Source: an uncultured Sphingomonadales bacterium (GTDB lineage Bacteria > Pseudomonadota > Alphaproteobacteria > Sphingomonadales > Rhodothalassiaceae). Taken from it: a stretch of 64,000 nt of DNA. Where the stretch lies: the NCBI GenBank assembly GCA_947499155.1, contig CANMND010000002.1, positions 1-64,000 on the forward strand. The letters run 5' to 3'. The notes beneath the pieces are model-generated. The model did no database searches, had not been told where the DNA came from, and saw only the letters and a list, made by a program, of their open reading frames with translations. Positions 37,647 to 56,358 of this stretch are shown here, piece by piece (positions within the stretch are counted from its first letter, which is position 1; every line of letters begins with the position of its first letter). A program made the position numbers and the translations under genes.

Positions 37647-37833
37647 GTCAGCTCCCTATTGCTGTTTTGTGCCATGTTATTTTTTATGGCGTGGTACCGG
37701 ATTGCCATATTACTTTTTGATTTTTGAACTGTGTTCCGGGGTGTTGTCAGGATAGAGGTCACATACTTGTTGAAATAGTAAAACACTTATATCGCGTAAT
37801 ATTCAGTATTGTCATACGCTTTAAGAGGTAATC

Positions 37834-37870
37834 GCGCCCGCTCCTCATGGGGGAAGGAGCGGGCGCTTTT
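37834..37870. terminator. Strong hairpin after the TonB receptor gene
   Basis: A perfect 12-bp stem GCGCCCGCTCCT / AGGAGCGGGCGC with a 9-nt loop is followed by TTTT on the plus strand. It lies just beyond the minus-strand receptor gene, so it probably ends that transcript, although the T-run favours plus-strand reading. Confidence 0.6.
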
Positions 37871-37891
37871 CCGACCCGCGCATGGTGCGGA

Positions 37892-40222: not shown

Positions 40223-40247
40223 GATTCCTCCCCAGGATATTTTCACG

Positions 40248-40269
40248 CTTAAACAGTTTAAGCCTAAAA
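40248..40269. promoter_or_regulatory. Operator-like dyad, receptor promoter (site A)
   Basis: A perfect palindrome CTTAAAC-A-GTTTAAG overlaps GTTTAAGCCTAAAA, which shares the 14-base form GTTTWAGCCTAAAM with site B2. It sits 26-47 bases before the receptor start. Confidence 0.5.
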
Positions 40270-40321
40270 TGAAAAATTATCAAATCACATCACACACCAG
40301 AGAGTGCCAGAGCCGCAGACT

Positions 40322-40711
40322 TTAGTCGGGGATGACGGCTGTTGTTTCGATTTCAATCAGCGCTTCGGGTTCAACAAGCCCAGCCACTTGTACGGCAGCC
40401 ATGGTTGGATAGTTTGCGCCGATTAATTCACGATAAACCGCGCCGATGTCACTTAAGGAGGCGCGATAGGCTTCCAAGTCCGTGATGTACCATGTCATAC
40501 GCACGATATGCTCAGGACCTGCACCGCCAGCTTTGAGGATGGCGAGTGTGTTTTCGATAATCTGGCGGAACTGCCCGCCAAAACCCTCGGCAAACTTTCC
40601 ATTCTGGTCCCAGCCTACCTGACCAGCTACATAAATATGTTGGCCACGTACGGAAATGCCGTTTGAATAACCCTTTGGTCGTTCCCATCCCTCGGGCAGA
40701 AGTATAGTCAT
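40322..40711 (-). CDS. RidA/YjgF family enamine or imine deaminase
   Basis: A 129-residue RidA-type protein. The trimeric fold is marked by GYSNGISVRGQHIYVAGQVGWDQNGKF, the helix QFRQIIENTLAILKAGGAGPEHIVRMTWYITD, and the C-terminal VEPEALIEIETTAVI. The classical active-site Arg is replaced in the local context RELIGANYPTMAAVQVAGLVEPEALIEIE, where the usual RxxV is QVAGLV, so canonical 2-aminoacrylate activity is doubtful. In this island it could hydrolyse the enamine made when 2-aminobenzoyl-CoA is dearomatised. It is divergent from the flavin oxidoreductase gene across a 118-base region with two operator-like dyads. Confidence 0.85.
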   Translation of the reverse strand: MTILLPEGWERPKGYSNGISVRGQHIYVAGQVGWDQNGKFAEGFGGQFRQIIENTLAILKAGGAGPEHIVRMTWYITDLEAYRASLSDIGAVYRELIGANYPTMAAVQVAGLVEPEALIEIETTAVIPD

Positions 40712-40786
40712 CAGCAAAGTCTCCCTCACTTGCACAGCATGGATTTACAAAAACAGTGGGCTCCCGGATATGCGGTTGAGCCAAAA

Positions 40787-40801
40787 GTTTTATGTTTAAA
40801 G
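40787..40801. promoter_or_regulatory. Operator-like dyad between ridA-like and OYE-like genes (site B1)
   Basis: GTTTTATGTTTAAAG fits the 15-base consensus GYTTTA-N2-TYTAAAR shared with sites C, D and E. Confidence 0.5.
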
Positions 40802-40808
40802 CAAATTT

Positions 40809-40822
40809 GTTTTAGCCTAAAC
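40809..40822. promoter_or_regulatory. Operator-like dyad immediately before the OYE-like start (site B2)
   Basis: GTTTTAGCCTAAAC is near-palindromic and ends 7 bases before ATG 40830. It leaves no room for a normal ribosome site, so binding here could block both transcription and initiation, or the message may be nearly leaderless. Confidence 0.5.
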
Positions 40823-40829
40823 TCCAGTT

Positions 40830-42299
40830 ATGTACAAGCCACCACAAAAAATAGCCTTCCCGCCCTCAACTGGGCGGTGGCCATCACGGTCTGAAGCGGA
40901 TGGTTCAGCTTTGTTTTCGCCGCTATCGTACGGACCATTAGATTTGAAAACAAGGACATGGGTACCGGCCATGGTTCCATGGCGGGCTAGTGAGGACGGG
41001 TATGTTACGGATGATGTCCTTAACTGGTATGGGAGATTTGCCAAGGGGCGACCGGGTGTGATCGTCGTTGAGGCGACAGGAATTCGGGATGTTCCCAGTG
41101 GTCCCTTGCTCCGAATTGGCGATGACCGCTTTATTCCTGGACTTAAAAAGCTGGTTGAACGCGTCCGTTATGAAAGTGGGGGCGAAACTCGGCTGTTTAT
41201 CCAGGTGATTGACTTTCTAAGTATCCGGCGCCGTCCGAAAAAAGATGTGTATCTGGAGCGCTATCTTAAAATCACTGACCGTCATCGTGCTGATCTTGAA
41301 ATGGTGAACGCAGATGAAACGGACATTCGCGAGCACTTAAAGGCGCTTAGTGATGAAGAATTGGACCAGGTTCTGGATGAAAGGGAGCGAGAATCGCTTT
41401 ATATGGGGCACCGGGAGCGGGTGACTGATATGCATCTGGAGCATATCCGTAGTTTGCCGCAAACCCTGCCAGGACTTTTCTCAGATGCAGCCCTGCGTGC
41501 CAAAAGCGCAGGTTTTGACGGTGTGGAACTGCATTACGCCCATGCCTACACCATGGCTTCCTTCCTCTCGGCCAGAAATACCCGTGATGACGGTTATGGC
41601 GGTACCCGTAAAAATCGCGTGCGCTTGCCATTGGAAGTCTATGAAGCAGTCCGCAAGCGCGTGGGCGACGATTATGTCGTCGGATGCCGGTTTCTGGCGG
41701 ATGAATGCATAGAAGGCGGATCCGGTGTTGAGGACAACGTCTATTTCGGCACTTGCTTTGCCAAGGCAGGCATGGACTTTCTGTCAACATCAAGGGGCGG
41801 AAAGTTTGAAGATGCGTTACAGCCAAAGCCGGGCTGGGCCGCTTACCCTTATACGGGTCCAAGCGGGTATGAGTGCATGCCGCAATGGTTGTCAGATGAA
41901 AAAGGCCCCTACGGACGCAATATTGATGCGACTTCTCAGATCCGTGCCGCGATCCGAAAGGCCGGATTGGAAACGCCGGTTGTCGTAACAGGTGGTATCC
42001 ATAATTTCGAGCAGGCCCAGGCTGCCTTATCCAGTGGCCAGGCCGACATTGTAGGTGCGGCGCGGCAGTCTCTAGCAGACCCCGACTGGTGGCTGAAAAT
42101 GAGACTGGGGAAGGGCGGTGATGTCCGTTTGTGCAAATACACAAACTATTGCGAAGGCCTTGACCAAAAGCACAAGCAGGTCACCTGCCAGCTTTGGGAC
42201 CGGGAGGCCATGGACGACAAGGATGTGACACTGAGCAGCGATGGACGCAGACGTCTGACATCGCCCTTGTGGCATTCTGAAGAAGATTCATCAGACTAA
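40830..42299 (+). CDS. NADH:flavin oxidoreductase, old-yellow-enzyme family, with a helical insertion
   Basis: A 489-residue FMN barrel protein. The family start is ALFSPLSYGPLDLKTRTWVPAM, the active-site stretch is GFDGVELHYAHAYTMASFLSARNTRDDGYGG, and the phosphate loop is TGGIHNFEQAQAALSSGQADIVGAARQSLADPDWW. Against a plain family member of about 370 residues it has a charged helical insertion at about 130-200 and a C-terminal Cys triad (C435, C441, C453) reminiscent of the CX2CX3CX11C iron-sulfur motif of 2,4-dienoyl-CoA reductases, with one Cys lost. The C-terminal NADPH/FAD domain of those enzymes is absent. It may reduce a CoA-thioester intermediate. No clear ribosome site is seen. Confidence 0.82.
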   Translation: MYKPPQKIAFPPSTGRWPSRSEADGSALFSPLSYGPLDLKTRTWVPAMVPWRASEDGYVTDDVLNWYGRFAKGRPGVIVVEATGIRDVPSGPLLRIGDDRFIPGLKKLVERVRYESGGETRLFIQVIDFLSIRRRPKKDVYLERYLKITDRHRADLEMVNADETDIREHLKALSDEELDQVLDERERESLYMGHRERVTDMHLEHIRSLPQTLPGLFSDAALRAKSAGFDGVELHYAHAYTMASFLSARNTRDDGYGGTRKNRVRLPLEVYEAVRKRVGDDYVVGCRFLADECIEGGSGVEDNVYFGTCFAKAGMDFLSTSRGGKFEDALQPKPGWAAYPYTGPSGYECMPQWLSDEKGPYGRNIDATSQIRAAIRKAGLETPVVVTGGIHNFEQAQAALSSGQADIVGAARQSLADPDWWLKMRLGKGGDVRLCKYTNYCEGLDQKHKQVTCQLWDREAMDDKDVTLSSDGRRRLTSPLWHSEEDSSD

Positions 42300-42311
42300 G
42301 CTTTAAATGTA

Positions 42312-42339
42312 TGTATCCGGGGAAACGTCCCCGGATACA
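42312..42339. terminator. Bidirectional hairpin between convergent OYE-like and acyl-CoA dehydrogenase genes
   Basis: A perfect 12-bp stem TGTATCCGGGGA / TCCCCGGATACA with an AACG tetraloop lies in the 45-base gap between two convergent genes. Confidence 0.8.
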
Positions 42340-42344
42340 AGTGT

Positions 42345-43520
42345 TTAGTCTTTGAGAAGCTCTCGGGCGATAATGACTTTTTGTACATCCGTTGCTCCTT
42401 CATAAATGCGAAGGGCCCGGATTTCCCGATATAGCTTTTCCACAGGATGGCCGGACCGCACGCCCAGGCCTCCAAAGATCTGAACCGCATCGTCGATACT
42501 GGTCTGGGCTGTTTCTGTGGCAAACAGTTTGGCCATGGCCGCTTCCCGGGTAATCCGGATTTTGCGGGTGTCCTTTACCCAGGCTGCACGATAAATCAAA
42601 AGGGCACTGGCATCTATATTAAGAGCCATGTCAGCGAGCTTGGCCTGAACCAGTTGCAGGTCAGACATGGGCGCGCCAAACATCTGACGTGACTTAGTGC
42701 GATCCAGTGATTCATCCAGAGCACGGCGGGCAAAGCCCAAGGATGCTGCACCTACTGTCGAGCGGAAAATATCCAGAGTGGACATTGCCGCCTTGAACCC
42801 TTCGCCTTCAGCACCAAGACGCATGTCCTTTGACACATGTGCGTCCTTGAATTCGAGACGTGCCAAGGGGTGGGGCGCTATGACAGGTATGCGTTCGGCA
42901 ATTGTGAGGCCGGGATTCTTCGCATCAACGATAAATGCGGAAATACCCCGTGCGCCATGGTCTTCACCCGTGCGGGCAAAGACTGTGTAGAAATCGGCTA
43001 TGCCGCCATTTGAAATCCAGGTCTTGGTACCGGAAATTTGATAGCCATCATCGGTTGGGCGTGCTCGTGTGGTCATGGCCGCAACGTCAGATCCGGCATC
43101 AGGCTCTGAAAGGGCAAAGGCTGCAACCTTTGACCCATTAGCTACTGCCGGCAGATAAGCCTCTTTAACAGCGTCACTTCCAAACAGGCTGATAGTGCCA
43201 GAACCTAGCCCCTGCATGGCGAAAACAAAGTCAGCCAGACCCGAATGACGTGCCAGTGTTTCGCGGATAATGCACAAAGAGCGCACATCCAGCTCTTCAA
43301 ACACACCGCCATAAGCGGCCGGCACCACATAACGAAGCCAACCGCCTTGTGCTAACCGCTGCAATAGAGTGGCGCACAAGGCATCGACTGAGGCCTCGTC
43401 TTCATGGGCTTCATTTTCAAGAGGGGCGATTTCTGAAGCGGCCCAGATATCAAGACTGCGGGCAAGATCACGGTGGCGATCTTCCAGAAAGGGCCAACTC
43501 AGAAAGGTTCTGTCAGCCAT
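42345..43520 (-). CDS. Acyl-CoA dehydrogenase
   Basis: This 391-residue FAD enzyme dehydrogenates an acyl-CoA at the alpha-beta position and passes electrons to ETF. The flavin-contact motifs are [20 protein letters not shown] and TWISNGG, and [19 protein letters not shown] follows. The catalytic base is Glu374 in [11 protein letters not shown], the position used by short- and medium-chain enzymes. It is the last gene of the five-gene minus-strand operon, 3 bases after the crotonase stop. Its substrate is probably a ring-derived dicarboxylic or cyclic CoA ester. Confidence 0.93.
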
Positions 43521-43523
43521 AGG

Positions 43524-44333
43524 TCAGTCACCCTCAAAAATGGGAGTTTCCTTTTTGACAAAGGCATTGTAGGCGCGCTCGAAATCTTTTGTCTGCATGC
43601 AGATTGCCTGTGCCTGGGCTTCTGCTTCGATCGCGGTATCAAGGCTCATGTCCCATTCCATATTGAGCTGGTTTTTCGTCATTCCATGGGCAAATGTCGG
43701 TCCATATGCCAGCTTTGACGCCATTTTCTGTGCTTCTGCCAGCAATGTGTCAGATGGGAACAGGCGATTGTAAAAGCCCCAGCGCTCGCCTTCCTCAGCC
43801 CGCATGGCGCGGCCTGAATATAAAAGATCAGCAGCGCGGCCCTGACCAATGATACGTGGCAGGATGGCGCAAGCGCCCATGTCACAGCCTGCAAGTCCGA
43901 CTTTTGTGAACAGGAAGGCCGTCTTGCTATTCTCGGTTGCGTAACGCAGATCCGACGCCATGGCGATAATTGCACCCGCACCGACGCAAATACCTTCCAC
44001 AGCCGAAATAATCGGTTGTGGGCAATTGCGCATCGCTTTTACCAGATCACCGGTCATGCGGGTGAAATTCAAAAGCTCTGGCATGGTCATTTTTGTCAGG
44101 GGGCCAATGATTTCGTGAACATCACCACCGGATGAAAAATTGCCACCAGCGCCTGTGATTACGACCGCGCGAACGTCTGTATCATAGACGAGGTTGCGGA
44201 AGGTATCGCGGAGTTCGGCATAACTTTCGAATGTAAGAGGATTTTTCCTCTCAGGCCTGTTGAGCGTGATGGTCGCCACCCGATCATGATAGTCCCACTG
44301 GAAATGCTCAGGCGCGAAAACGTCAGCTTTCAT
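43524..44333 (-). CDS. Crotonase family protein resembling MenB/BadI (possible ring-opening hydrolase)
   Basis: A 269-residue crotonase. The oxyanion-hole segments are [10 protein letters not shown] (residues 62-71) and [13 protein letters not shown] (116-128). Both glutamates used by enoyl-CoA hydratase are missing: the first aligns with Ile122 and the second with Lys144. Instead the stretch [26 protein letters not shown] carries an Asp (Asp151) placed like the catalytic Asp of MenB and of BadI, which opens the ring of 2-oxocyclohexanecarboxyl-CoA. That chemistry would suit a dearomatised and deaminated anthraniloyl-CoA. It overlaps marR by 4 bases. Confidence 0.85.
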
Positions 44334-44833
44334 GGTGATTTTTTCTCCGGTATATTGCCGATTGCAGAATTCTGGACCCGGCGCAAATCGACAAGCAAGC
44401 GCTCGGCGTCTTCGTTTGATACGGCTGCGAAAAGCTCATCAATCCAGGCTTCATGCGCATCCGCCATGGCATTAAAGGCAGTCTCACCCTCTTTGGTCAG
44501 GGTTACGACATGAGTACGTCTGTCCTCTAGCGATTGGTTGCGTTCTACCAGTCCATCAGACACAAGTCGCGTTACTACACCTGTGACATTGCCGTTGGAG
44601 ACCATCAGCATGCGCGACAGCTCCCCCATGGAAAGACCGTCATGGGCGCGATGAAGTGCGGACAACACATCAAAGCGTGGCAATGTGGTATTGAAATGTT
44701 CACGCAGTCTGTTACGGATCGTCCCCTCGATCAGCATGGTGCAGCTAAGAATACGCAACCACAATCTCAGGGATTGCTTGCTGTGTGGAGCCCCATCCAT
44801 CTTTTCGTGCAACTTAGTTGTCTGGCCAGACAT
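44330..44833 (-). CDS. MarR family transcriptional regulator
   Basis: A 167-residue winged-helix regulator: [63 protein letters not shown] has the recognition helix and the wing DRR. MarR proteins bind short AT-rich dyads as dimers and release on aromatic acids or CoA esters. It lies inside the operon it would control, sharing a TAATG junction with the SDR stop and 4 bases with the crotonase start. The shared dyads A to E are candidate targets. Confidence 0.92.
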
Positions 44834-45597
44834 TACATCACCTCACCTCCGGCCACAGAAAGCGATTGTCCTGTTACTGAGCGGGCATCCGGTGAGCACA
44901 ACCATAAAGCAAGAGCTGCAATCTCATCGGGTTCAATCAGACGTTTTTGTGGATTATTTTTTACCAGCTCTGCCAGGGCATCTTGCTCACTTCGGCCTGT
45001 TTTGTTGATTATAGTTTCTATTGACCGTTGTACAATATCCGTATTGGTGAAGCCGGGGCAAATAGAATTGATTGTTATGGGTTTCCCGGCGAGTTCAAGA
45101 GCCAGTGCACGGGTAAGCCCGATCACCGCGTGTTTTGAGGCTACATAAGCACTTACGTAGGAATATCCCTTTAATCCTGCAGTGCTGGCAATATTTATGA
45201 TGCGGCCATGATCTGTCTGTTTCATTTGTTCAAGTGCTGCGCGGGTACACAGAAAGATACCGCCCGCATTAACAGACATCACCAAATTCCAATTGTCATA
45301 AGTGGTTTTAGCGAAAGAAGCAGTCGGGGCAATGCCGGCATTATTGACCAGAATATGGGCGGGGCCAAAGCGTTCGGCCGCTCGGTCAAAGGCTGTGGCA
45401 ACACCGTCTTCATCGGTGATATCAAGTGCGATCGCCTGGGCCTTGGGCAAGGTGTCAGAGACAGCCTTCAGCCGCTCTTCATTGCGCGCCATCAAGGTGA
45501 CGGCTGCGCCTCTTTCTGCAAATAGCTGTGCGATTGCGCGACCAATTCCGGTGCCGCCGCCTGTGATGATGGCATGTTGTCCCTTAAGGTTTGTCAT
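44833..45597 (-). CDS. Short-chain dehydrogenase/reductase (3-hydroxyacyl-CoA dehydrogenase-like)
   Basis: This 254-residue classical SDR has the cofactor motif [16 protein letters not shown], the catalytic Ser in INIASTAG, and YxxxK as YVASK in [13 protein letters not shown]. The residues after beta-2 (MARNEERL) suggest NADP or a mixed preference. It resembles beta-hydroxyacyl-CoA and cyclic-alcohol dehydrogenases of aromatic pathways. Its start overlaps the monooxygenase/reductase stop by 4 bases. Confidence 0.9.
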
Positions 45598-47897
45598 GCA
45601 TTCATCACCATCATGTCGGCTGCACGGGCAAGGTTTCGTTCCAATTGGCTAAAGCCCGACAGATAAGGATTGGGTACGGCTACTCCGTGATACCCTTGCT
45701 CAGCCGCAGCGCGGATTGTCCAGTTGGGATCCATCAGATGGGGACGAGCGATTGCGCAAAGGTCAGCGCGGCCCGACGCCAGGATCGAGTTCACATGGTC
45801 AATTTCATAGATATTGCCAACAGCCATGGTGGCCACATTCCCCTCATTGCGGATGAGGTCGGAATAAGGCGTCTGGAACATACGGCCATAAACAGGCTTG
45901 GCGGCCCTGGTCGTCTGTCCGGCTGAGACATCGATCAGGTCGGCGCCGGCGTCACGGAACGCACAACCGATTGCAACGGCTTCTTCTGCGCTTATGCCAT
46001 CGTCTCCGACCCAATCAGTCGCCGAAATGCGGACGGCCATTGGCTTGTCCTCTGGCCAGGCTTCACGCATGGCTCGGAACACTTCCAAAGGATAACGCAG
46101 GCGGTTTTCAAGGGATCCGCCATATTCATCCGTACGATTGTTCATAACAGGCGTGAGGAAGCTGGAAATCAGATAGCCATGGGCGGCGTGCATCTCGACC
46201 ATGTCGAAGCCAGCCTCAAGGGACATTCTAACAGCGCGGACATGTTCATCCCGCACCCGATCCATATCATCACGATCCATAGCTTTCGGAGTCTGGTTTT
46301 CAGGCGACCAGGGAAGGTCAGACGCTGCCATAATCGGCCAGCCACCGCTTTCAAGCGGTACGTCATAGCCCTCCCAGCCTACTTTTGTAGCTCCTTTGGG
46401 GCCTGCATGGCCAAGCTGGATGCATATTTTTGCCTGCGATTGAGCATGCACATAATCGACAATGCGCTTCCAGGCGGCCACATGTTCATCATTGTACATC
46501 CCGGCACAGCCTGGCGTGATGCGGCCTTCTGCGGAGACGTTGGTCATTTCCGTATAGACCAGACCAGCTCCACCCATGGCGCGGGCACCATAATGGACAA
46601 GGTGGAAATCACCGACATTGCCGTCCTTTGAGCTGTACATCGACATGGGTGAGACCACGATACGATTTTTCAGTTCCATCTTGCGCAGACGGAAGGGCGT
46701 GAACATTGGCGGGACAGGTTCATCCACCTTTTTTCCAACAGCTTTGCTGGCAAACCAGCGTTCCACCGATTGTAGCCAGCTACTGTCTCTCAAGCGCAGA
46801 TTTTCATGACTGACACGCTGGGAGCGGGTGAGCATGGCATAGGCAAACTGCATCGGTTCAAAATGCGTATAGCGCGGGACGTTTTCAAACCACTCTGTGG
46901 AGTTGCGTGCAGCACTTTGCAGGCGCAGAACGTCCAGTTCGCGTTCTTCCTGATATTGGGCGAGAGCCTCGGGCACACTGAGTTTTGCACTGTTCAGCAC
47001 ATTGGCAAGGCTGATCGCATCCTCAAAGGCAAGTTTGGTACCTGATCCGATGGAGAAATGAGCCGTATGTGCGGCATCACCCAAAAGAACGATATTTTTA
47101 TGATACCAGGTCTTGCACAGAACACGGGGAAAGTTGATCCAGGCTGAACCTCGAATATGAGCGGCATTGGACATCAGCTTGTGGCCATCAAGCTCTTTGG
47201 CGAAGATGCGCTCGCACGTGCGGGAGCTTTCTTCCTGACTCATGGTGTCAAAGCCGAACGCCTTATAGGTCTCATCTGAACATTCCACGATGAAAGTGGA
47301 GGTGTCCTTGTCGAAACGATAGGCATGGACCCAGATCCAGCCATGTTCCGTTTCTTTGAAGATGAAGGTAAAGGCGTCAAACAGCTTGTGTGTCCCAAGC
47401 CAGACGAACTTGTTGGCGCGAACATCAATGTCCGGCTCGAAATGTTCGGCAAACTTGGTGCGCACTTTTGAGTTGAGGCCGTCGGACGCTATAATGAGAT
47501 CCGCATCGGCAAACTGGTCAAGATCTGTATTGGCATCTATGTCAGTTTCAAAAACCAGGTTCACATCCAGTTCGCGGCAGCGCTCCTGAAGGATGTTCAG
47601 CAGCCGCTTGCGACCAATACCGCAAAAGCCGTGACCCGTTGATGTGATGATATTTTCTTTGAAATGAACGTCGATATCGTCCCAATGCGCCAGTTCGTCC
47701 CGAATAGTTTTTGCGGTAATAGGGTCATTTTCGCGCAGATTATCCATGGTCTGATCAGAAAAGACGACACCCCAGCCAAATGTGTCACCTGGCTTGTTAC
47801 GCTCATAGACCGTTACATCATGGTCCGGGTTGTGGATTTTCATGGATAGAGCAAAATAAAGACCCGCAGGCCCACCACCCAGGCAGATGATTTTCAT
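45594..47897 (-). CDS. 2-aminobenzoyl-CoA monooxygenase/reductase-like fusion flavoprotein
   Basis: A 767-residue two-domain flavoenzyme. Residues 1 to about 390 are a group A FAD monooxygenase: [16 protein letters not shown], then [15 protein letters not shown], then [24 protein letters not shown]. Residues about 400-767 are an old-yellow-enzyme reductase: [26 protein letters not shown] and [18 protein letters not shown]. The same order occurs in the 2-aminobenzoyl-CoA monooxygenase/reductase of Azoarcus evansii, which hydroxylates and then reduces 2-aminobenzoyl-CoA without cleaving the ring; databases also name the group salicylyl-CoA 5-hydroxylase/oxidoreductase. GGAGG lies 5 bases before ATG 47897. 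First gene of the operon, with site C upstream. Confidence 0.9.
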
Positions 47898-47964
47898 CAC
47901 GTCCTCCGACTTACTAACTTATCTGGAAATGGTATTGGGCTGACAGGTGTCGGTCAACAAAAAA

Positions 47965-47979
47965 GTTTTACATTTAAAA
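47965..47979. promoter_or_regulatory. Operator-like dyad, monooxygenase/reductase operon (site C)
   Basis: GTTTTACATTTAAAA, arms TTTTA and TAAAA, lies 68-82 bases before the first gene of the five-gene operon. Confidence 0.5.
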
Positions 47980-48014
47980 TATATATTGTGCACGGGCGAT
48001 TGGCTCGCTGCCAG

Positions 48015-49007
48015 TCAGCATACTTTACCAAGCAGGGTGCTCTCTAACAGAGGTTTTAGGCCCATGGCAGCGCGGCGCTCGTCCAGATCTTCGGGATCGT
48101 TTGTGTCATAGAGTCGAATTTTGCCATCCTGGCATGTCATCTGGGTTCCAAAAGACTGAGGTTTCCCAGCTACAAGCGCAAGACGGTCTTCCAGCAAAGC
48201 AATATAACGGCCATCACCTTCACCATTAGAATAAAGGGCTTTCATGCGGCGAAGGACATCACTCTGAAAGTCGGGGGCATGTGATGCGTGCTGAGTAATT
48301 GTCCATGCCGCCGTATAAGCGTCCATGCCAAAGGCGGATGGTGCAGGAAATCCGTATTCAGCGATTGTCTGTTCCAGCCAGCGCGCATTATCCAGATCAA
48401 CCTGGCCAAAGCCCAGCCAGAACAGTCTTTTGTAAAAGGCTTCGGCCTCGGGGCTGACCGCAACGCCGATATGGTCTTTCAGCGTCCCGTCTGACGCATC
48501 GCGCCATGTCTGGTCAATCTCAGCCCGGTAAAACAGCTCTGCAACATAAGGCTGTGACGGGTCTTGTGCAGCCCGTGCCGCCTCTCCTCGCGTATGGGCC
48601 AGCTTCGCCAATTTCTCCAGCCTCTTAATGCCATTTTGATACCAATAATCATATTGTCCTTTATCCGAACTAGCCTGAAGCAGGTCCAGCTGTGCGAGCA
48701 GGCGCAGGTCATTGGCGGACTCGTCGGCATATTCCGGTGCACTCAGTGGAATGCGTTTTTGTCCGGTTCGTTCAGCAAATCGGCGCTCATTGTCGGAAAT
48801 TCGTTCTTGTGCAAGGGCTTTTAATCTTTCGATTTCTTCCTGACCGTCAGCACCACCATCAAACCAAAGCTGCGGGAGGTCTGCCGCGGAATTTCCACTT
48901 CCAAGGTACCCGGTCGCACTGGATTCACTGGCCACGACACTGTGCGCAAGAGCAATATCCGTCAAAGATAACAGTAGGATGAGCGAAAGTGTGATAATTT
49001 TATTCAT
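48015..49007 (-). CDS. DUF6624 family exported protein
   Basis: A 330-residue protein with a signal peptide (MNKIITLSLILLLSLTDIALAHS). The C-terminal half matches DUF6624: DNARWLEQTIAEYGFPAPSAFGMDAYTAAWTITQHASHAPDFQ, then GRYIALLEDRLALVAGKPQSFGTQMTC, then DPEDLDERRAAMGLKPLLES. The family has no known activity. The N-terminal half is helical and charged. GGGGGT lies before ATG 49007. It sits between the monooxygenase operon and the glutaryl-CoA dehydrogenase gene and shares the divergent promoter region containing site D. A link to catabolism is only positional. Confidence 0.8.
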   Translation of the reverse strand: MNKIITLSLILLLSLTDIALAHSVVASESSATGYLGSGNSAADLPQLWFDGGADGQEEIERLKALAQERISDNERRFAERTGQKRIPLSAPEYADESANDLRLLAQLDLLQASSDKGQYDYWYQNGIKRLEKLAKLAHTRGEAARAAQDPSQPYVAELFYRAEIDQTWRDASDGTLKDHIGVAVSPEAEAFYKRLFWLGFGQVDLDNARWLEQTIAEYGFPAPSAFGMDAYTAAWTITQHASHAPDFQSDVLRRMKALYSNGEGDGRYIALLEDRLALVAGKPQSFGTQMTCQDGKIRLYDTNDPEDLDERRAAMGLKPLLESTLLGKVC

Positions 49008-49108
49008 GAATATACCCCCGAGAAAATATCTTAGTTTCACATCATAATTGCAGAGTGCGCAACAGCGTCATATCTGGGCCTGACAGGTTTAAGGTTGGTG
49101 ACGGGAAA

Positions 49109-49123
49109 GCTTTATGTCTAAAA
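49109..49123. promoter_or_regulatory. Operator-like dyad, glutaryl-CoA dehydrogenase promoter (site D)
   Basis: GCTTTATGTCTAAAA fits GYTTTA-N2-TYTAAAR. It lies 82-96 bases before the plus-strand start and about 100 bases before the divergent DUF6624 gene. Confidence 0.5.
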
Positions 49124-49204
49124 TAAATTGATTGCATTCCAAGTGGCTTTTTGGATATCAGAATTGCAAATGCATGATCCCGGCATAAAGAAAGAGGCAC
49201 TTCC

Positions 49205-50428
49205 ATGACCGATTCATCTGCGACCGCATCTCCTGCTTCCGCCCCGAAGCGCTGGCCCTCTGTCAATTGGGAAGACCCGCTTTTGCTTGAGGGGCTATTG
49301 ACGGAAGAAGAGCGCATGGTGCGGGATTCAGCGCGGAGTTATGCGCGGGGGTCGTTGATGCCGCGCATTCTGGAAGCTAATCGCCATGAGATTTTTGACC
49401 GCGAGATTCTGCGTGAGATGGGCGCAGCCGGACTTTTGGGTGCGACCATTGACGGCTATGGCTGCGCCGGGGTGTCGTCGGTGTCCTATGGCCTGATCGC
49501 CCGCGAGGTGGAATGGGTTGATTCGGGCTATCGTTCGGCCATGAGCGTGCAGTCGTCTTTGGTCATGCACCCGATTCACGCCTATGGCAGCGAGGAGCAG
49601 CGTGAGCGCTGGCTTCCCGGCCTTGCGAGCGGTGATCTTGTCGGCTGCTTTGGCCTCACCGAGCCCGATGCAGGGTCAGATCCCGGCAGTATGAAGACGC
49701 GGGCGAAGAAGGTGGATGGCGGCTATCGCCTGACCGGGTCAAAGATGTGGATCACCAATTCGCCGATTGCCGATCTGTGCATTGTCTGGGCAAAAAGCGA
49801 GGCCCATGACGGCCGCATCAAGGGCTTTGTGCTGGAACGCGGCATGGAGGGGCTTTCCATGCCGAAGATCGAAGGCAAATTGAGCCTGCGGGCCTCGATC
49901 ACTGGCGAGATTGTCATGGACAATGTGTTCGTGCCTGAGGCCAATCTGTTGCCCCATGCGGAAGGCCTGTCCGGGCCGTTTGGCTGCCTTAACAATGCGC
50001 GCTTTGGCATTGCCTGGGGCGCATTGGGTGCAGCAGAGTTCTGTCTGTCCGCGTCACGGGATTATGCGCTGGAGCGGACTTTGTTTGGCAAGAAGCTGGC
50101 GGGCATGCAACTGGTGCAGAAAAAGCTTGCAGACATGATGACAGAGATCGCTCTTGGCCTTGTGGCTTGCGTGCAGGCGGGGCGTCTGAAGGACCAGCAC
50201 GAGCTGGCGCCTGAGACCATTTCGCTTCTGAAACGAAACAGCTGTGGCAAGGCTTTGGATATCGCCCGCATGGCCCGCGACATTCATGGCGGCAATGGCA
50301 TTGCCGATGAATATCACGTCATGCGCCACATGGTGAATCTGGAAACCGTCAACACCTATGAGGGCACGCACGACGTCCACGCCCTGATCCTTGGCCGCGC
50401 CATAACCGGCATTCAGGCGTTCGGGTGA
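49205..50428 (+). CDS. gcdH: Glutaryl-CoA dehydrogenase
   Basis: A 407-residue acyl-CoA dehydrogenase of the glutaryl branch, which oxidises and decarboxylates glutaryl-CoA to crotonyl-CoA. It begins [31 protein letters not shown], has [21 protein letters not shown] and [18 protein letters not shown], and ends with the signature [24 protein letters not shown], with catalytic Glu386. Within the island it implies that a C7 or C5 dicarboxylic intermediate passes through glutaryl-CoA. A thiolase follows after 49 bases. Confidence 0.94.
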
Positions 50429-50477
50429 GGCTTGAGATCAGGTGAGGCCAGATAATCGGGTGATGGAGGAAAACAGG

Positions 50478-51680
50478 ATGCGTGACGCCTTTATTTGTGG
50501 TTATGCCAGAACGGCTATCGGACGTTTTGGCGGGGCCTTGTCTTCCGTAAGGACGGATGATCTGGCCACAGTCCCGATTACAGCCCTGATGGAGCGTCAT
50601 AGCTCAGTTGATTGGGGTGCTCTTGAAGATGTGATCCTGGGCTGCACCAATCAGGCGGGCGAAGACAATCGCAATGTTGCCCGTATGGCAGCTTTGTTAT
50701 CTGGCCTGGGTGAGGGCGCTGCGGGTCAGACTGTCAACCGTCTGTGCGGCTCTGGAATAGAGGCTGTGGCGTCTGCGGCTCGTGCTATACGCTGTGGTGA
50801 GGGCGACCTGTTTATTGCGGGTGGGGTCGAATCCATGAGCAGGGCACCCTATATCATGCCCAAGCCTGAGAGCGCTTTTTCGCGCCGGGCTGAGATTTAT
50901 GACAGCACCATCGGCTGGCGTTTCGTCAATCCGAAAATGGCTGACCTTTGGGGGATCGACTCCATGGGAGATACAGCGGAAAATCTGGTGGACAGTCACA
51001 AGATTTCCCGTGAGGATCAGGATGCGTTCGCGTTTCGCAGCCAGCAGAAAGCAAAAGCGGCGCAGGAAAGTGGACGTCTTGCTCTTGAGATTGTGCCGGT
51101 TGCGGTGAAAGCCCGCAAATCAAGCCATCAGGTGCTGGAAGACGAGCACCCACGTCCTGATACAAGCCTTGAAACGCTGGCAGCCCTGAGACCCGCCTTC
51201 AGAAAAGAAGGCAGTGTCACGGCCGGTAATAGCGCCGGGGTAAACGACGGTGCTGCAGCCTTGATCATCGCAAGCAAGGAAGCAGCCATACGTCATGGCC
51301 TGACACCAATTGCCCGCATCATGGGAGCGTCCGTTGCAGGCGTCGAGCCGCGTATCATGGGCATAGGTCCCGTTCCAGCGACACGCCGTTTACTTGATCG
51401 GCTTGGTCTGGCTATGGATGCCATAGATGTTCTGGAGCTGAACGAAGCATTTGCAGCACAGGCACTGGCGGTACAACGATCCCTTGGGCTTGATGATGAC
51501 GATCCGCGGATCAATCCCAATGGTGGTGCCATCGCTCTGGGCCATCCCTTGGGGATGAGTGGCGCCCGATTGGCAGGCAGTCTTGCCATGGAACTGCAGC
51601 AGACAAACAAGACTTATGGCCTTGCCACCATGTGCGTTGGTGTGGGCCAAGGAGTTGCACTTGCGCTTGAACGGGTGTGA
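50478..51680 (+). CDS. Acetyl-CoA acyltransferase (thiolase, PcaF-like)
   Basis: A 400-residue thiolase. The acyl-accepting cysteine is Cys90 in TVNRLCGSGIEAV. The second half has AFAAQALAVQRSLG, NPNGGAIALGHPLGMSGARL with the catalytic His, and the base cysteine in MCVGVGQGVAL. The sequence tone is that of 3-oxoadipyl-CoA thiolases, but acetoacetyl-CoA and longer chains are possible. GGAGGA lies 7 bases before ATG 50478. With gcdH it would finish degradation to acetyl-CoA. Confidence 0.93.
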   Translation: MRDAFICGYARTAIGRFGGALSSVRTDDLATVPITALMERHSSVDWGALEDVILGCTNQAGEDNRNVARMAALLSGLGEGAAGQTVNRLCGSGIEAVASAARAIRCGEGDLFIAGGVESMSRAPYIMPKPESAFSRRAEIYDSTIGWRFVNPKMADLWGIDSMGDTAENLVDSHKISREDQDAFAFRSQQKAKAAQESGRLALEIVPVAVKARKSSHQVLEDEHPRPDTSLETLAALRPAFRKEGSVTAGNSAGVNDGAAALIIASKEAAIRHGLTPIARIMGASVAGVEPRIMGIGPVPATRRLLDRLGLAMDAIDVLELNEAFAAQALAVQRSLGLDDDDPRINPNGGAIALGHPLGMSGARLAGSLAMELQQTNKTYGLATMCVGVGQGVALALERV

Positions 51681-51741
51681 CTGTGTGAGCACATACTGTG
51701 GAAGGTGCCGTTATTCCGGCCTGGGGCTTTTTTGGCAATAT

Positions 51742-51756
51742 GCTTTAACTTTAAAA
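51742..51756. promoter_or_regulatory. Operator-like dyad, cyclase-iorAB promoter (site E)
   Basis: GCTTTAACTTTAAAA, arms TTTA and TAAA, matches GYTTTA-N2-TYTAAAR, 91-105 bases before the cyclase start. Confidence 0.5.
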
Positions 51757-51846
51757 TTGCTTGTCCCCGTCACTTGCAGTTAGGCTGCAGACAAGAGCGA
51801 AAATTTCGCCTTAATAACTAAGCACCACCTGTTATGGGAGAGACAT

Positions 51847-52632
51847 GTGTCCAATGCTATTTTGACAAATCTGGTGACGGCTCTGGCTGGTAAAAGCATC
51901 AAGGTCGTTGATTTGACCCAGCCGCTTCATCCGAAAACACCAATCCTGGCTCTGCCGGAAGAATTTGCTTCGTCTCCTGGTTTCAGCATTGAAACGATCA
52001 GTGAATATGATGATCGCGGCCCTGCCTGGTACTGGAACAAATTTGCCTGCGGTGAACATACAGGCACCCATTTCGATGCGCCTATTCACTGGGTTACCGG
52101 CAAGGACCATGAAAATAACGCCACAGATACCATTCCTGTAGAGCGTTTCATCGGGCCTGCCTATGTGATTGATATCGTCGCAGAAGTGGAGAAAGACGAA
52201 GATTTCCTGCTCACACCTGCCTATATTGAGAACTGGGAAAAGACTCACGGAAAGATTGCCAAAGATTCGTGGGTTCTGGTGCGCTCTGGCTGGTCGAAAC
52301 GTAAAGATCCGAAAGAGTTTCTTAATGCGCGTGAGGATGGTTCTCACAGCCCGGGCTTTCATCCTGATGCCCCGACATTCCTTGCTGAACAGAGGGATGT
52401 CCTGGGTATCGGTGTTGAAACAGTCGGAACAGATGCAGGCCAGGCACATACCCTTGATCCCATGTTCCCTTGTCACGCCCTGATGCACGGTGCCAACAAG
52501 TTTGGATTGGCCAGCTTGACAAATCTTGATCAGTTGCCGCCAACCGGGGCAGTGGTTATCGCGCCACCCCTTAAAATTGTGCGTGGATCAGGCTCCCCCT
52601 TGCGGGTTCTGGCACTGGTCCCAAGTGCGTAA
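51847..52632 (+). CDS. Cyclase family metal-dependent hydrolase, isatin hydrolase-like
   Basis: A 261-residue member of the kynurenine formamidase/isatin hydrolase superfamily. The metal motif HxGTHxDxPxH is HTGTHFDAPIH near residues 74-84. The length (KynB formamidases are about 210), the PILALPEEFA start, the ISEYDDRGPAWYWNKFACGEH strand and the end GLASLTNLDQLPPTGAVVIAPPLKIVRGSGSPLR agree best, from memory, with isatin hydrolase of Labrenzia, which opens isatin to isatinate with Mn2+. N-formylkynurenine hydrolysis is the main alternative. The start is GTG 51847 with GGGAGAG upstream. It leads the operon with iorA and iorB. Confidence 0.85.
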   Translation: MSNAILTNLVTALAGKSIKVVDLTQPLHPKTPILALPEEFASSPGFSIETISEYDDRGPAWYWNKFACGEHTGTHFDAPIHWVTGKDHENNATDTIPVERFIGPAYVIDIVAEVEKDEDFLLTPAYIENWEKTHGKIAKDSWVLVRSGWSKRKDPKEFLNAREDGSHSPGFHPDAPTFLAEQRDVLGIGVETVGTDAGQAHTLDPMFPCHALMHGANKFGLASLTNLDQLPPTGAVVIAPPLKIVRGSGSPLRVLALVPSA

Positions 52633-52659
52633 GCTACACTATTAAACGAGGTACAGGTC

Positions 52660-54804
52660 ATGGCAGAACGTTCATTTGCTAAAGAAGTGGAAACCCTGCG
52701 CGTTGGTGCGGGTGAGGAGTTTCATGGCGAAGGCATTCTTGCCGTGACCAAAGCCTTGCTACAATCCGGTATCGCTTATGTCGGCGGCTATCAGGGAGCA
52801 CCCATATCTCATCTTATGGATGTGTTGGCAGATGCAGAATCCTTGATGAGCGAACTGGATATCCATTTCGAAGCCAGCGCCTCAGAAGCAAGTGCGGCCG
52901 CCATGCTGGCTGCGTCTGTTAACTACCCATTGCGCGGCGCCGTCACGTGGAAGTCCACGGTCGGCACCAATGTTGCCTCTGATGCGCTTGCCAATGTGGC
53001 GTCCGGTGGCGTTACGGGTGGGGCGCTGGTTATCCTCGGCGAAGACTATGGCGAAGGGTCTTCGATCATGCAGGAACGCAGCCATGCGTTTGCCATGAAG
53101 TCCCAGATGTGGCTTTTGGACCCACGCCCCAATCTGACCAGTATTGTGAATGCAGTGGAGCAGGGCTTTGAACTGTCTGAGGCATCCAATACGCCGGTCA
53201 TGCTGGAGCTTAGGATCAGGGCTTGTCACGTCTATGGAAGCTTTACCGCAAAAGATAACAAGCGACCCGAATTCCGCCTGCGTGACGCTATGGAAAACCC
53301 GGTGCGAGACACAAACCGTATTGTCTTGCCACCAGCCAACTATGCCCATGAGCACGAAAAGATTAATAAGCGCTGGCCCGCAGCTATCGACTATATCAAA
53401 AAGAACCGCTTGAACGAGTTTCTGGGCGCTGAAGAGGGTGAAATTGGAATTGTCGTTCAAGGCGGACTTTATAACACCCTGATCCGGGCGCTTGAGATTC
53501 AGGGCCTGTCGGACAGCTTTGGTAATGCCAAAGTGCCGATTTATGTTCTGAACGTCACCTATCCATTGGTGGATGACGAACTGGTCGGTTTTTGCGCTGA
53601 TAAACGTGCAGTGTTGCTGGTGGAAGAAGGCCAGCCTGATTATATCGAACAGGCCGTCAATACCATTCTCCGTAAGCGCGACCTTCAAACCCGCATCGTC
53701 GGTAAAGACGTGTTACCCCTGGCTGGTGAATATACCGGTGAAGTCATGCGTCGTGGCATTGCCGAATTCATGGCGACTTATGGCGGTGAACTGGCACCCG
53801 GTCCGCGTGGTCATAATGTTCCGGCAGAAAGTGAGTCGGCCCCTGAAGAACTGGCCGAAATTCTGCCGCCTCGTCCTGCAGGCTTTTGTACTGGTTGTCC
53901 TGAACGTCCGATCTTTTCCGCCATGAAAATGCTGGAACACGAGATGGGGCCATTCCATGTATCCTGCGACATTGGCTGTCATCTGTTTTCAATTCTGCCC
54001 CCTTTTAATATCGGCAATACCACAATGGGTTATGGCCTTGGTTGGGCAGGAGCTTCCGCTTTCAACACGGAATCCGACAAGCGCACCATTTCCATTATGG
54101 GGGATGGCGGATTCTGGCATAATGGCCTGACGAGTGGCGTTGGCAATGCGGTGTTCAACAAGAACGATAATGTGCTTGTGATCATCGACAACAATTATGC
54201 AGCAGCGACGGGCGGACAGGATATCCTGTCCAGCCGGGCTGAGCGTGAGACCAAAGCCACCGGCCACAGTATTCAAAGGGCAGTCGCGGGTGTGGGTGTC
54301 TCATGGATGCGAACCGTATCAAGCTATGATGTGGAGCTGATGCGCACTACATTGCGTGATGCGCTTACCACCCCCATCAAAGGGCCTAAGGTGATCATAG
54401 CGGAAGGCGAGTGCATGCTTAACCGCCAACGCCGTGAGAAACCTATCAAATCCAAGATGGTAAGAGACGGCAAGCGGGTGGTCAGGCAGCGTTTCGGTAT
54501 TGATCCTGATACCTGCACCGGTGACCATAGCTGTATTCGGCTGTCTGGTTGTCCGTCCCTTACTATTCAGGAAAATCCTGATCCATTACGGGAAGATCCG
54601 ATTGCCTATGTGGACAATAGCTGTGTCGGTTGTGGTCTTTGCGGAGAAGTGGCCCATGCCGCTGTTTTGTGCCCAAGCTTTTACCGCGCTGATGTTATTC
54701 AAAACCCAAATGTCCGGGACAGGCTTTCTGCCAAAATTCATGGTGCGGTGATTGGCTGGATGCAAAAACGTATGGAGCGCACCCGTTCTCGCCATGCTTT
54801 CTGA
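52660..54804 (+). CDS. iorA: Indolepyruvate ferredoxin oxidoreductase-type 2-oxoacid oxidoreductase, subunit A
   Basis: A 714-residue thiamine-diphosphate enzyme. The N-terminal pyrimidine domain runs from GEGILAVTKALLQSGIAYVGGYQGAPISHLMD. The ThDP motif GDGGFWHNG...NNYAAATGG lies at about 482-515. A ferredoxin-like tail has C655-X2-C658-X2-C661-X9-C671 and a first cluster site C619-TG-D622-HS-C625-IRLSG-C631 in which the second Cys of archaeal IorA is Asp. It cleaves a 2-oxoacid to acyl-CoA and CO2. Indolepyruvate or phenylpyruvate are the classical substrates; isatinate is my proposal from context. The cyclase gene ends 27 bases upstream. Confidence 0.92.
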   Translation: MAERSFAKEVETLRVGAGEEFHGEGILAVTKALLQSGIAYVGGYQGAPISHLMDVLADAESLMSELDIHFEASASEASAAAMLAASVNYPLRGAVTWKSTVGTNVASDALANVASGGVTGGALVILGEDYGEGSSIMQERSHAFAMKSQMWLLDPRPNLTSIVNAVEQGFELSEASNTPVMLELRIRACHVYGSFTAKDNKRPEFRLRDAMENPVRDTNRIVLPPANYAHEHEKINKRWPAAIDYIKKNRLNEFLGAEEGEIGIVVQGGLYNTLIRALEIQGLSDSFGNAKVPIYVLNVTYPLVDDELVGFCADKRAVLLVEEGQPDYIEQAVNTILRKRDLQTRIVGKDVLPLAGEYTGEVMRRGIAEFMATYGGELAPGPRGHNVPAESESAPEELAEILPPRPAGFCTGCPERPIFSAMKMLEHEMGPFHVSCDIGCHLFSILPPFNIGNTTMGYGLGWAGASAFNTESDKRTISIMGDGGFWHNGLTSGVGNAVFNKNDNVLVIIDNNYAAATGGQDILSSRAERETKATGHSIQRAVAGVGVSWMRTVSSYDVELMRTTLRDALTTPIKGPKVIIAEGECMLNRQRREKPIKSKMVRDGKRVVRQRFGIDPDTCTGDHSCIRLSGCPSLTIQENPDPLREDPIAYVDNSCVGCGLCGEVAHAAVLCPSFYRADVIQNPNVRDRLSAKIHGAVIGWMQKRMERTRSRHAF

Positions 54805-54816
54805 AAGACTTAAGTT

Positions 54817-56358
54817 ATGACCGATAATCCTCGTCCCATTACCCTGGCTGTTGCAGCACTTGGCGGTCAGGGAGGTGGTGTGTTGTCCGGTTGGATTGTT
54901 AAAACCGCCGAAAATTGCGGCTATATTGCGCAATATACGTCTGTTCCTGGTGTTGCCCAGCGGACTGGAGCGACCATTTATTGTATAGAGCTTTTCCCAA
55001 AAGCTGCGGCAGTCAAAGAGGGAAAGCTTCCGGTTCTGGCCCTTACCCCCATGCCTGGGGATGTGGATATTGTTATTGCGGCAGAGCTGATGGAAGCCGG
55101 GCGGGCAGTCAGCCGGGGATTTGTAACGCCTGATGTAACAACGCTGATTACGTCCACACATCGCGAATATGCAATCAGTGAAAAAAGTGCCATGGGTGAT
55201 GGCATTGCCGATGCAGAAGTCGTTCTCAAGGTAGCCAGAGATCGCGCGAAAAGGCTTGTTGCCTATGACATGAAGGCAGCGGCAGAAGCGGCTGGAAGTG
55301 TTATCAGCTCGGCTCTTTTTGGGGCCCTTGCAGGGTCCGGCGCCCTTCCATTTCCGCGATCAGCCTTCGAAGACACCATACGGGCAGGTGGACGCATGGT
55401 TGAAACAAATCTTGCATCCTTTGCTAATAGTTATGAGCGTGCCCAATCAGGCCAAACTGACAGTGACACTGTTGTCAAAGCTGTTGCTTCCACAAAGACT
55501 GTGGAGTCAAAACAGGCCCTGTCAAAGCCGGTTGAAGCGCTTTTGGAGCGGATCAGATCCTCTTTTCCTGCAGCCATTCATCCGACCTTGATTGAAGGCG
55601 CAAGACGGTGTGTAGATTATCAGGATCCGGCCTATGGCCAGTTCTATCTGGATCGGCTGGATTCTGTATTGTCCTTGGATAGCGGTCCCAGAGGCTATGT
55701 ATTGACCGAAACCGTGGCGCGTTATCTGGCTTTGTGGATGTCTTATGAAGACACAATCCGGGTGGCAGATCTCAAAACCCGGGGCAGTCGGTTTGAGAGG
55801 GCGCAAAAAGAAGTGCGGGTCAAACCCGACCAGATCGTCTATCTCACTGAATTTATGCATCCACGGGTCGAGGAAATTGCGGATACCCTGCCAGCCCCGA
55901 TAGGGCGCTATATTATGGCATCACCCCGGTTACAGACGTTTATGGGGCGTTTCACCAAAAAGGGCCGCCATATTCGTACTGCAAAACTATCCGGTTTCCT
56001 GCTTTTGGCTTTTCTTTCATCCTTGCGCCGCATTCGACGTTCTACCTTGCGCTATAAAGTGGAGCAGGCGCGCATCGAGGATTGGCTGGGACGGGTTAAA
56101 AGTCCTGCCGCATCCGATTATGATTTCGCGGTGGAAATTGCGCGTTGCCAGCGTCTGGTAAAGGGCTATGGCGATACACACATGCGCGGCCTTAAAAACT
56201 TCGCCCATTTGATGGATGCCTCGGAAACGCTGGCCGGCCGCAAGGATGCAGCGCGCGTCTTGTCCGGTCTGCGAAATGCGGCTCTGGCTGATGATGTGGG
56301 TGAAACTTTGCAAAAAGAGCTGGAGACCCTCTCATCCAAATCAAAGTCAGTGGCATGA
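54817..56358 (+). CDS. iorB: Indolepyruvate oxidoreductase subunit B with a C-terminal DUF6537-type extension
   Basis: A 513-residue protein. The first about 200 residues are the gamma-type domain of 2-oxoacid oxidoreductases: LAVAALGGQGGGVLSGWIVKTAENCGYIAQYTSVPGVAQRTGATIYCIEL, then VDIVIAAELMEAGRAV. The remaining about 300 residues, absent from archaeal IorB, are helical and basic (GRFTKKGRHIRTAKLSGFLLLAFLSSLRRIRR), as in the extended proteobacterial subunits. The extension may handle electron output in an aerobe. It follows iorA after 12 bases and probably forms the complex with it. Confidence 0.9.
   Translation: MTDNPRPITLAVAALGGQGGGVLSGWIVKTAENCGYIAQYTSVPGVAQRTGATIYCIELFPKAAAVKEGKLPVLALTPMPGDVDIVIAAELMEAGRAVSRGFVTPDVTTLITSTHREYAISEKSAMGDGIADAEVVLKVARDRAKRLVAYDMKAAAEAAGSVISSALFGALAGSGALPFPRSAFEDTIRAGGRMVETNLASFANSYERAQSGQTDSDTVVKAVASTKTVESKQALSKPVEALLERIRSSFPAAIHPTLIEGARRCVDYQDPAYGQFYLDRLDSVLSLDSGPRGYVLTETVARYLALWMSYEDTIRVADLKTRGSRFERAQKEVRVKPDQIVYLTEFMHPRVEEIADTLPAPIGRYIMASPRLQTFMGRFTKKGRHIRTAKLSGFLLLAFLSSLRRIRRSTLRYKVEQARIEDWLGRVKSPAASDYDFAVEIARCQRLVKGYGDTHMRGLKNFAHLMDASETLAGRKDAARVLSGLRNAALADDVGETLQKELETLSSKSKSVA

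Follow-up and report, generated by a model that had tools for sequence, protein, structure and literature searches.

According to the accessible part of PMC9613470, the iad route of auxin degradation in Achromobacter, Variovorax and Bradyrhizobium runs via isatin and isatinic acid to free anthranilate as its reported end product; iadA and iadB have been published, in the text available, as exclusive markers of auxin loci of this isatin-to-anthranilate type. The accessible part of PMC4539516 describes the 2-aminobenzoyl-CoA route of Azoarcus evansii with an AMP-forming ligase and also an old 5-hydroxyanthranilate/gentisate route. Here we analysed a stretch of 64,000 nucleotides from an uncultured Sphingomonadales bacterium (contig CANMND010000002.1, positions 1 to 64,000, the window), in which an island at 40322-56358 combines an isatin hydrolase-like cyclase and a two-subunit 2-oxoacid oxidoreductase (IorAB) with a 2-aminobenzoyl-CoA monooxygenase/reductase fusion (ACMR) and its cassette.

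The pathway modules are already known, and what is new is their combination and the reaction proposed for IorAB. Judged from the sequences and their context, the island is probably a ligase-free entry to the CoA-dependent anthranilate pathway, in which IorAB would make 2-aminobenzoyl-CoA from isatinate. A Mn-dependent isatin hydrolase would convert isatin, which arises in the breakdown of indole and of plant hormone compounds, to isatinate (2-aminophenylglyoxylate); IorAB, an enzyme with thiamine diphosphate (ThDP) and Fe-S centres, would convert isatinate and CoA to 2-aminobenzoyl-CoA, CO2 and reduced ferredoxin or another reduced acceptor; ACMR would hydroxylate and reduce the ring of 2-aminobenzoyl-CoA; and RidA, a short-chain dehydrogenase/reductase (SDR), a crotonase, two acyl-CoA dehydrogenases and a thiolase would bring about deamination, ring opening and beta-oxidation of the product. 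The gene identities, the operon layout, the lack of a 2-aminobenzoate-type ligase and the co-occurrence across genomes are shown by the data below; from these we infer the substrate and product of IorAB, the order of the later steps and the source of isatin. If true, this would be an aerobic CoA activation that costs no ATP, yields reduced ferredoxin and replaces the ligase found in 49/53 ACMR genomes of our survey, and a direct enzyme assay is feasible with commercial isatin.

The IorAB of the window is of the same kind as IadAB and carries the iadA/iadB marker of iad loci, its IorA sharing 64-68% identity with the IorA of loci from Achromobacter, Bordetella and Variovorax (L136, L141, L142, L155, L173 and L189; L numbers denote loci and G numbers genomes). 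Loci of the iad type hold IorA, IorB, a reductase, Rieske alpha/beta subunits, an AMP ligase, isatin hydrolase and an SDR in a row (L136, L141, L142, L155 and L189 in Alcaligenaceae, L173 in Variovorax sp., L182 and L183 in Pseudacidovorax), the order in Achromobacter and Variovorax-type loci being IorA-IorB-reductase-Rieske-AMP ligase-isatin hydrolase. By contrast, the window is without the Rieske oxygenase (iadDE), its reductase and the AMP ligase, and has the ACMR cassette instead, with gene names assigned by similarity. A 2-aminobenzoyl-CoA monooxygenase/reductase followed by beta-oxidation-type enzymes is common to the window and the A. evansii pathway, but a search of the whole window genome at 1e-60 gave no dedicated 2-aminobenzoate-CoA ligase, and isatin hydrolase-IorAB stands where it would be expected.

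The island and its predicted enzymes

The island consists of two divergent operons with the following genes:

40322-40735, minus strand: RidA-type enamine/imine deaminase (domain match; recurrent in ACMR cassettes)
40830-42299, plus strand: flavoprotein resembling old yellow enzyme (OYE), inside the island (Oxidored_FMN in two stretches; below every equivalog cut-off)
42345-43520, minus strand: acyl-CoA dehydrogenase ACAD1 (domain match; below every equivalog cut-off)
43524-44333, minus strand: crotonase of the PRK08258 family, probable hydratase or ring hydrolase (NF006107, 491 bits, cut-off 330)
44330-44833, minus strand: MarR-family regulator of the ACMR cassette (domain match; position recurrent in other cassettes)
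44833-45597, minus strand: SDR dehydrogenase of the ACMR cassette (domain match; recurs beside ACMR elsewhere)
45594-47900, minus strand: ACMR-type 2-aminobenzoyl-CoA monooxygenase/reductase fusion, FAD_binding_3 plus OYE (NF006101, 1325 bits, cut-off 1078)
49205-50428, plus strand: glutaryl-CoA dehydrogenase-like ACAD2 (1sir, 607 bits; near ACMR also in L126, L132, L213 and L220)
50442-51680, plus strand: 3-oxoadipyl-CoA-type (PcaF-type) thiolase (TIGR02430, 636 bits, cut-off 597; near ACMR also in L213 and L220)
51847-52632, plus strand: isatin hydrolase of the cyclase family with IHB-type GLAS motif, predicted to convert isatin to isatinate (5nmp 319 bits, 4j0n 275; motifs)
52660-54804, plus strand: IorA-like/IadA-like subunit with thiamine pyrophosphate (TPP) domain and Fe-S cysteines, proposed alpha subunit of an isatinate:acceptor oxidoreductase (TPP_enzyme_C; TIGR03336, 286 bits, cut-off 651)
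54817-56358, plus strand: IorB-like/IadB-like subunit, POR domain plus DUF6537 (NF006179, 694 bits, cut-off 348; POR, 40 bits, cut-off 27)

On the minus strand, ACMR, SDR, MarR, crotonase and ACAD1 genes overlap their neighbours or lie 3 nt apart, with RidA nearby; on the plus strand the cyclase follows the thiolase after 166 nt and is separated by 27 nt from iorA, which lies 12 nt before iorB. The cyclase, iorA, iorB, fusion, SDR, crotonase, dehydrogenases and thiolase listed in the original prediction were all recovered from the open reading frames and family scores; that inventory left the MarR and RidA genes unnamed, and its MenB/BadI label for the crotonase received no specific confirmation.

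The closest solved structures to the cyclase are isatin hydrolases (5nmp and 4j0n as above, 5nnb 308 bits), followed by the cyclase family protein 8f9x at 102 bits and kynurenine formamidases at no more than 28 bits. The accessible part of PMC6117287 ties a metal motif, a WxW pocket and a GLAS signature to isatin hydrolysis, and the cyclase has the metal motif HxG[T/A]HxDxPxH as HTGTHFDAPIH, the aromatic pocket WxW/FxW as WYW and the GLAS/GLQC signature as GLAS. These features are common to the window cyclase and LaIHA, LaIHB and RsIHA of that source (275-319 bits), but unlike them the window cyclase shares an operon with IorAB. The isatin-hydrolase-like assignment made earlier is thus confirmed in its structural matches and signature motifs, and the best reading of this protein is an isatin hydrolase that would open isatin to isatinate.

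IorA and IorB show the TPP domain, Fe-S cysteines and POR-domain subunit of the 2-oxoacid:ferredoxin oxidoreductase superfamily, all of which are also found in indolepyruvate ferredoxin oxidoreductase (TIGR03336/TIGR03334). Unlike that enzyme, they lie far below both cut-offs (286 bits against 651 for IorA, 27 against 206 for IorB in TIGR03334) and IorB carries a long DUF6537 extension; by these scores neither subunit qualifies as a canonical indolepyruvate enzyme. Across alignments of 14 and 20 rows, seven cysteines of IorA (619, 625, 631, 655, 658, 661 and 671) and its TPP motif residues (G481, D482, G483, D510 and N511) do not vary. With a mean pLDDT of 65, the predicted IorA model has low confidence; among the matches listed, it is closest by target TM-score to the 2-oxoacid oxidoreductases Oor, oxalate oxidoreductase and OGOR (0.60, 0.63 and 0.44), whereas by E-value other ThDP enzymes rank first. 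No match among solved structures was obtained for IorA or IorB searched singly, and a profile search of structures gave weak matches to four other ThDP enzymes.

The phenylglyoxylate:acceptor oxidoreductase of A. evansii reportedly converts an arylglyoxylate and CoA to aroyl-CoA and CO2, as a multi-subunit anaerobic enzyme; the chemistry of IorAB would be the same, but the window has two subunits in a pathway whose following step needs O2. The accessible part of PMC9765128 states no more than that phenylglyoxylate is decarboxylated en route to benzoyl-CoA. The ACMR fusion scores well above the cut-off of NF006101, a model named salicylyl-CoA 5-hydroxylase/oxidoreductase, and the best reading of its substrate, from its surroundings, would be 2-aminobenzoyl-CoA.

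Ligases and co-occurrence of the modules

The window genome (G000) has 2.81 Mb and is listed as 100% complete. As ligase query we used Rhodoplanes L172, a gene inside an ACMR cassette, which is 49% identical to the Tsukamurella ligase (312 bits in TIGR02262, below the cut-off of 375). The name "2-aminobenzoate-type ligase" and the labels IadC-F, 5HAO and TE rest on similarity to genes of Azospirillum, Caballeronia, Tsukamurella and Rhodoplanes. The whole window genome gave no match to this query at 1e-60, which upholds, for the 2-aminobenzoate type, the earlier statement that no aryl-CoA ligase is present; ten general AMP-binding genes were found, and the benzoate-CoA ligase family is absent at 1e-60 among the matches listed for all ten. 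At the same threshold, 15 of 22 genomes searched matched the Rhodoplanes-type ligase, while G000, G003 (89% complete), G004, G005 (64%), G006, G199 (64%) and G208 gave no match. Within the window's family, G001 has a 39% ligase homologue only, and isatin hydrolase-IorAB adjoins ACMR in G001 and G004 as well.

IorA, ACMR, isatin hydrolase and ligase were scored in one sample of 289 genomes of the host's class, the ligase at E 1e-130; all co-occurrence counts and Fisher p-values given here ignore shared descent and are not phylogenetically independent. Of the 289 genomes, 42 have IorA, 53 ACMR, 9 isatin hydrolase and 57 the ligase. IorA and ACMR occurred together in 32 genomes (32/42 IorA-positive against 21/247 IorA-negative genomes, p 6e-20), ACMR and ligase together in 49/53 ACMR-positive genomes (p 5e-42), and the IorA family in 9/9 genomes with isatin hydrolase against 33/280 others (p 1e-8). 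Four of these nine have an IorA of the window's clade with the hydrolase nearby, and five have an IorA of the sister group described below with the hydrolase on another contig. ACMR without ligase was confined to G000, G208, G031 (86% complete) and G199. Among the 289, only G000 and G208 were found with isatin hydrolase-IorAB beside an ACMR cassette, and the ligase is present in 0/2 of them against 49/51 other ACMR genomes (p 0.004). The 53 ACMR regions fetched comprise 27 with the crotonase cassette and 26 without; in ACMR-crotonase cassette regions without IorAB in reach the ligase is in place in 25/27, and the remaining two, L213 and L219, lie on contigs 11.4 and 7.1 kb long.

Loci from named genomes were taken from an IorA-alignment scan as the best 80 of 592 confirmed matches, a choice biased toward close relatives, with a neighbourhood of up to 10 kb per side and less on short contigs. 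Isatin hydrolase was near 46/80, ACMR 24/80, a Rieske alpha subunit 19/80 and a gentisate-type dioxygenase 10/80. The genome-wide ligase search covered 37 of the 80, made up of the 24 whose locus includes ACMR and 13 others. The original prediction had named, as refuting, clusters that always carry a ligase; this is not borne out: among the 24 linked genomes, 14 had no match, though 10 carry a ligase somewhere in the genome (5 in the locus). Set against the unlinked class genomes (49/51), the 10/24 give p 3e-7, the two being different samples. The 14 negatives are seven isolates (Sphingomonas, four Novosphingobium, Agrobacterium and Pseudomonas gessardii) and seven metagenome-assembled genomes of unstated completeness; they include L157 (1.2 Mb), for which loss of the ligase is doubtful because its IorA is nearly identical to that of the ligase-bearing L158. 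The ten ligase-bearing genomes include Rhizobium, Neorhizobium and Ochrobactrum, in which anthranilate may come from other sources.

The modules are joined in several arrangements. Azospirillum thermophilum has IorAB, reductase, Rieske alpha/beta, AMP ligase, SDR, ACMR, SDR, crotonase, acyl-CoA dehydrogenase, thioesterase and RidA in a single run, with a divergent MarR gene and a cyclase about 15 kb away. In Caballeronia SBC1, IorAB, thioesterase and ACMR are accompanied by a gentisate-type dioxygenase and a gene resembling fumarylacetoacetate hydrolase; isatin hydrolase lies 9.4 kb past iorA, and the 30-kb stretch shows no annotated ligase. Tsukamurella has ACMR, cyclase, IorAB and ligase together, and in G208 (L057) IadF-, thiolase- and Rieske-like genes are followed by isatin hydrolase, IorAB and the ACMR cassette. 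IorAB, partly with thioesterase and ACMR, also lies beside gentisate/5-aminosalicylate-type dioxygenases and hydrolases in L104 (17825-24700), L148, L159, L164, L171, L174, L175, L178, L179, L180 and L190; these gentisate-type loci are a possible 5-hydroxyanthranilate branch supplied by 2-aminobenzoyl-CoA.

For the wider proposal our confidence is evenly divided: IorAB/IadAB may be an unrecognised isatinate:acceptor oxidoreductase (2-aminobenzoyl-CoA forming) and the missing iad step in Proteobacteria and some Actinomycetota, its product feeding either ACMR reduction or CoA-level 5-hydroxylation, thioesterase and gentisate-type dioxygenase, with the ligase tending to be lost where the step is built into the ACMR cassette. 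This would fill a gap in the known auxin-degradation pathway, give iadA and iadB, as marker genes of auxin loci, a reaction that explains the use of isatinate, and explain through the 5-hydroxylation/gentisate branch the old reports of anthranilate passing to gentisate. In the literature searched, which covers few subscription journals, no paper found gives IorAB or iadAB an isatinate reaction or another function, and the accessible parts of PMC10374108, PMC11630574, PMC8383072, PMC6221969, PMC11676955 and PMC12538310 likewise do not assign the isatinate step.

Phylogeny of IorA and rival explanations

In a tree of 137 IorA rows, built by a quick method with SH-aLRT support, the window IorA falls with its family and other relatives in a clade of 101 rows (SH-aLRT 100), where isatin hydrolase is in reach of 59 rows, other isatin-route genes of 14 and neither of 28, several of the latter on short contigs. 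Several results weigh against the isatinate reaction proposed for IorAB, in addition to the shared descent that the survey counts ignore. In a separate group of 33 IorA rows, drawn entirely from the class sample, none has an isatin gene in reach; the 46 class-sample IorA places divide into these 33, 10 in the window's clade and 3 between, and 43/46 lack an isatin hydrolase up to a distance of about 9 kb, the hydrolase being near only 3/10 places even in the window's clade. The 29 genomes of the sister group have ACMR in 21 and isatin hydrolase elsewhere in 5, and the 10 class genomes of the window's clade, the window included, have ACMR in 8 and isatin hydrolase in 4; since the sister group also tracks ACMR (21/29), the IorA-ACMR association is not specific to isatin. 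ACMR regions without the crotonase cassette hold the ligase in place in only 3/26, so that distance alone says little there. G166 and G035, in which IorAB lies about 9 kb from ACMR, keep the ligase elsewhere in the genome, and a ligase is likewise retained in the 10/24 linked named genomes. A link to isatin is not clear for the IorA family as a whole and is stronger for the window's branch. The sister group comprises L064-L067, L071, L072, L074-L076, L078-L083 and L085-L102, some of which adjoin TRAP or peptide transporters.

In the accessible part of a preprint (PMC12633357), anthranilate is reported to be restored in a deletion strain of Variovorax by iadC-K2 lacking iadAB, and roles are assigned to iadC-K2; neither iadA nor iadB is mentioned in its text. 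Isatinate can therefore become anthranilate otherwise, and this is the strongest point against a need for IorAB in making anthranilate, with which a CoA-linked route is still compatible.

It is unlikely that IorAB is an indolepyruvate or phenylpyruvate oxidoreductase for aromatic amino acids which merely neighbours the isatin hydrolase. The annotation and best family names of IorAB, the sister group and the 43/46 places without hydrolase in reach all agree with such a role, but the scores far below the equivalog cut-offs do not, and a separate fused indolepyruvate-type enzyme is already encoded in the window genome (L002, 1282 bits, cut-off 816). Moreover, isatin hydrolase lies immediately 5' of iorA (same strand, less than 300 nt) in 21/139 loci, and none of the 289 genomes has isatin hydrolase without this IorA family.

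We judge it improbable as well that isatinate reaches free anthranilate by another route and is activated by one of the ten general AMP-binding ligases, IorAB being dispensable. The Variovorax result and the ten genes themselves speak for this route. Nine of the ten resemble other enzyme classes (fatty-acid, acyl-AMP, acetate, methylthiopropionate or exosortase-associated enzymes), whereas for L012, the remaining one, the nearest family is PRK06155, at 506 bits under the cut-off of 722. An acyl-CoA ligase that adjoins isatin hydrolase in Azospirillum shares 39% identity with L012, a further point against a ligase-free entry, and an IadF-like ligase of Azospirillum shares 30%, all three proteins belonging to the PRK06155 family; because of the 39% identity, L012 would be the first candidate if a ligase serves after all. 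Against this route stand 0/10 AMP-binding genes matching the 2-aminobenzoate-type ligase at 1e-60 and the dedicated ligase carried by 49/53 ACMR genomes.

That the fusion acts on another aryl-CoA such as salicylyl-CoA, with the isatin and ACMR operons as unrelated neighbours, would fit the NCBIfam name and the divergent operons but is very improbable given the ACMR cassettes that occur elsewhere with the anthranilate-forming enzymes tryptophan dioxygenase and kynureninase (L207, L220, and L069/L073 with L199/L200), the strong IorA-ACMR co-occurrence (32/42 against 21/247) and the joining of both modules in named genomes of several lineages.

Source of isatin and neighbouring genes

A further weak point of the proposed conversion of isatinate by IorAB is where the organism would obtain isatin, since a search for Rieske, iac and iad upstream genes in the window genome returned a single Rieske-domain match, in an open frame of 227 aa, and no auxin oxygenase. 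Such a frame would be too short for the alpha subunit of a ring-hydroxylating oxygenase, and the indole or indoleacetate route suggested in the original prediction is not supported here. Uptake of isatin is possible, as a TonB receptor and a sodium symporter adjoin the island: the flanking 35129-40246 holds a TonB receptor, a sodium:neurotransmitter-type symporter and a class-V aminotransferase, which are possible uptake genes.

Other sources were considered and rejected. For tryptophan dioxygenase as a source of anthranilate, one weak homologue was found (92.6 bits, 28% identical), with no kynureninase homologue within 18 kb around it. The class-V aminotransferase at 35129 scored 104 bits against the kynureninase cut-off of 246 and is 26% identical to the kynureninase of L073. 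In the sister genome G004 (L053), the four neighbours of IorAB tested as a source of isatin proved to be housekeeping genes.

L069 and L073 (in G166 and G035) bring together hydantoinase A/B, IorAB, tryptophan dioxygenase, kynureninase and a RidA-SDR-MarR-crotonase-dehydrogenase cassette, with ACMR adjoining; their hydantoinase A/B might substitute for isatin hydrolase as the lactam-opening enzyme. In L108, on the conjugative Hydrogenophaga plasmid pPBL-H3_B4-2, this IorA is found with a homologue of IorB; genes for a Rieske dioxygenase, a glutamine synthetase-type protein and an amidotransferase lie beside them, and the set resembles aniline oxidation genes.

Within the island, the OYE-like protein has 489 aa, and its split Oxidored_FMN match suggests an insertion. 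A DUF6624 protein is encoded at 48015-49040, between the two divergent operons, and a pair of genes for DUF2868 and DUF3482/GTPase proteins lies at 56478-59371, directly past iorB.

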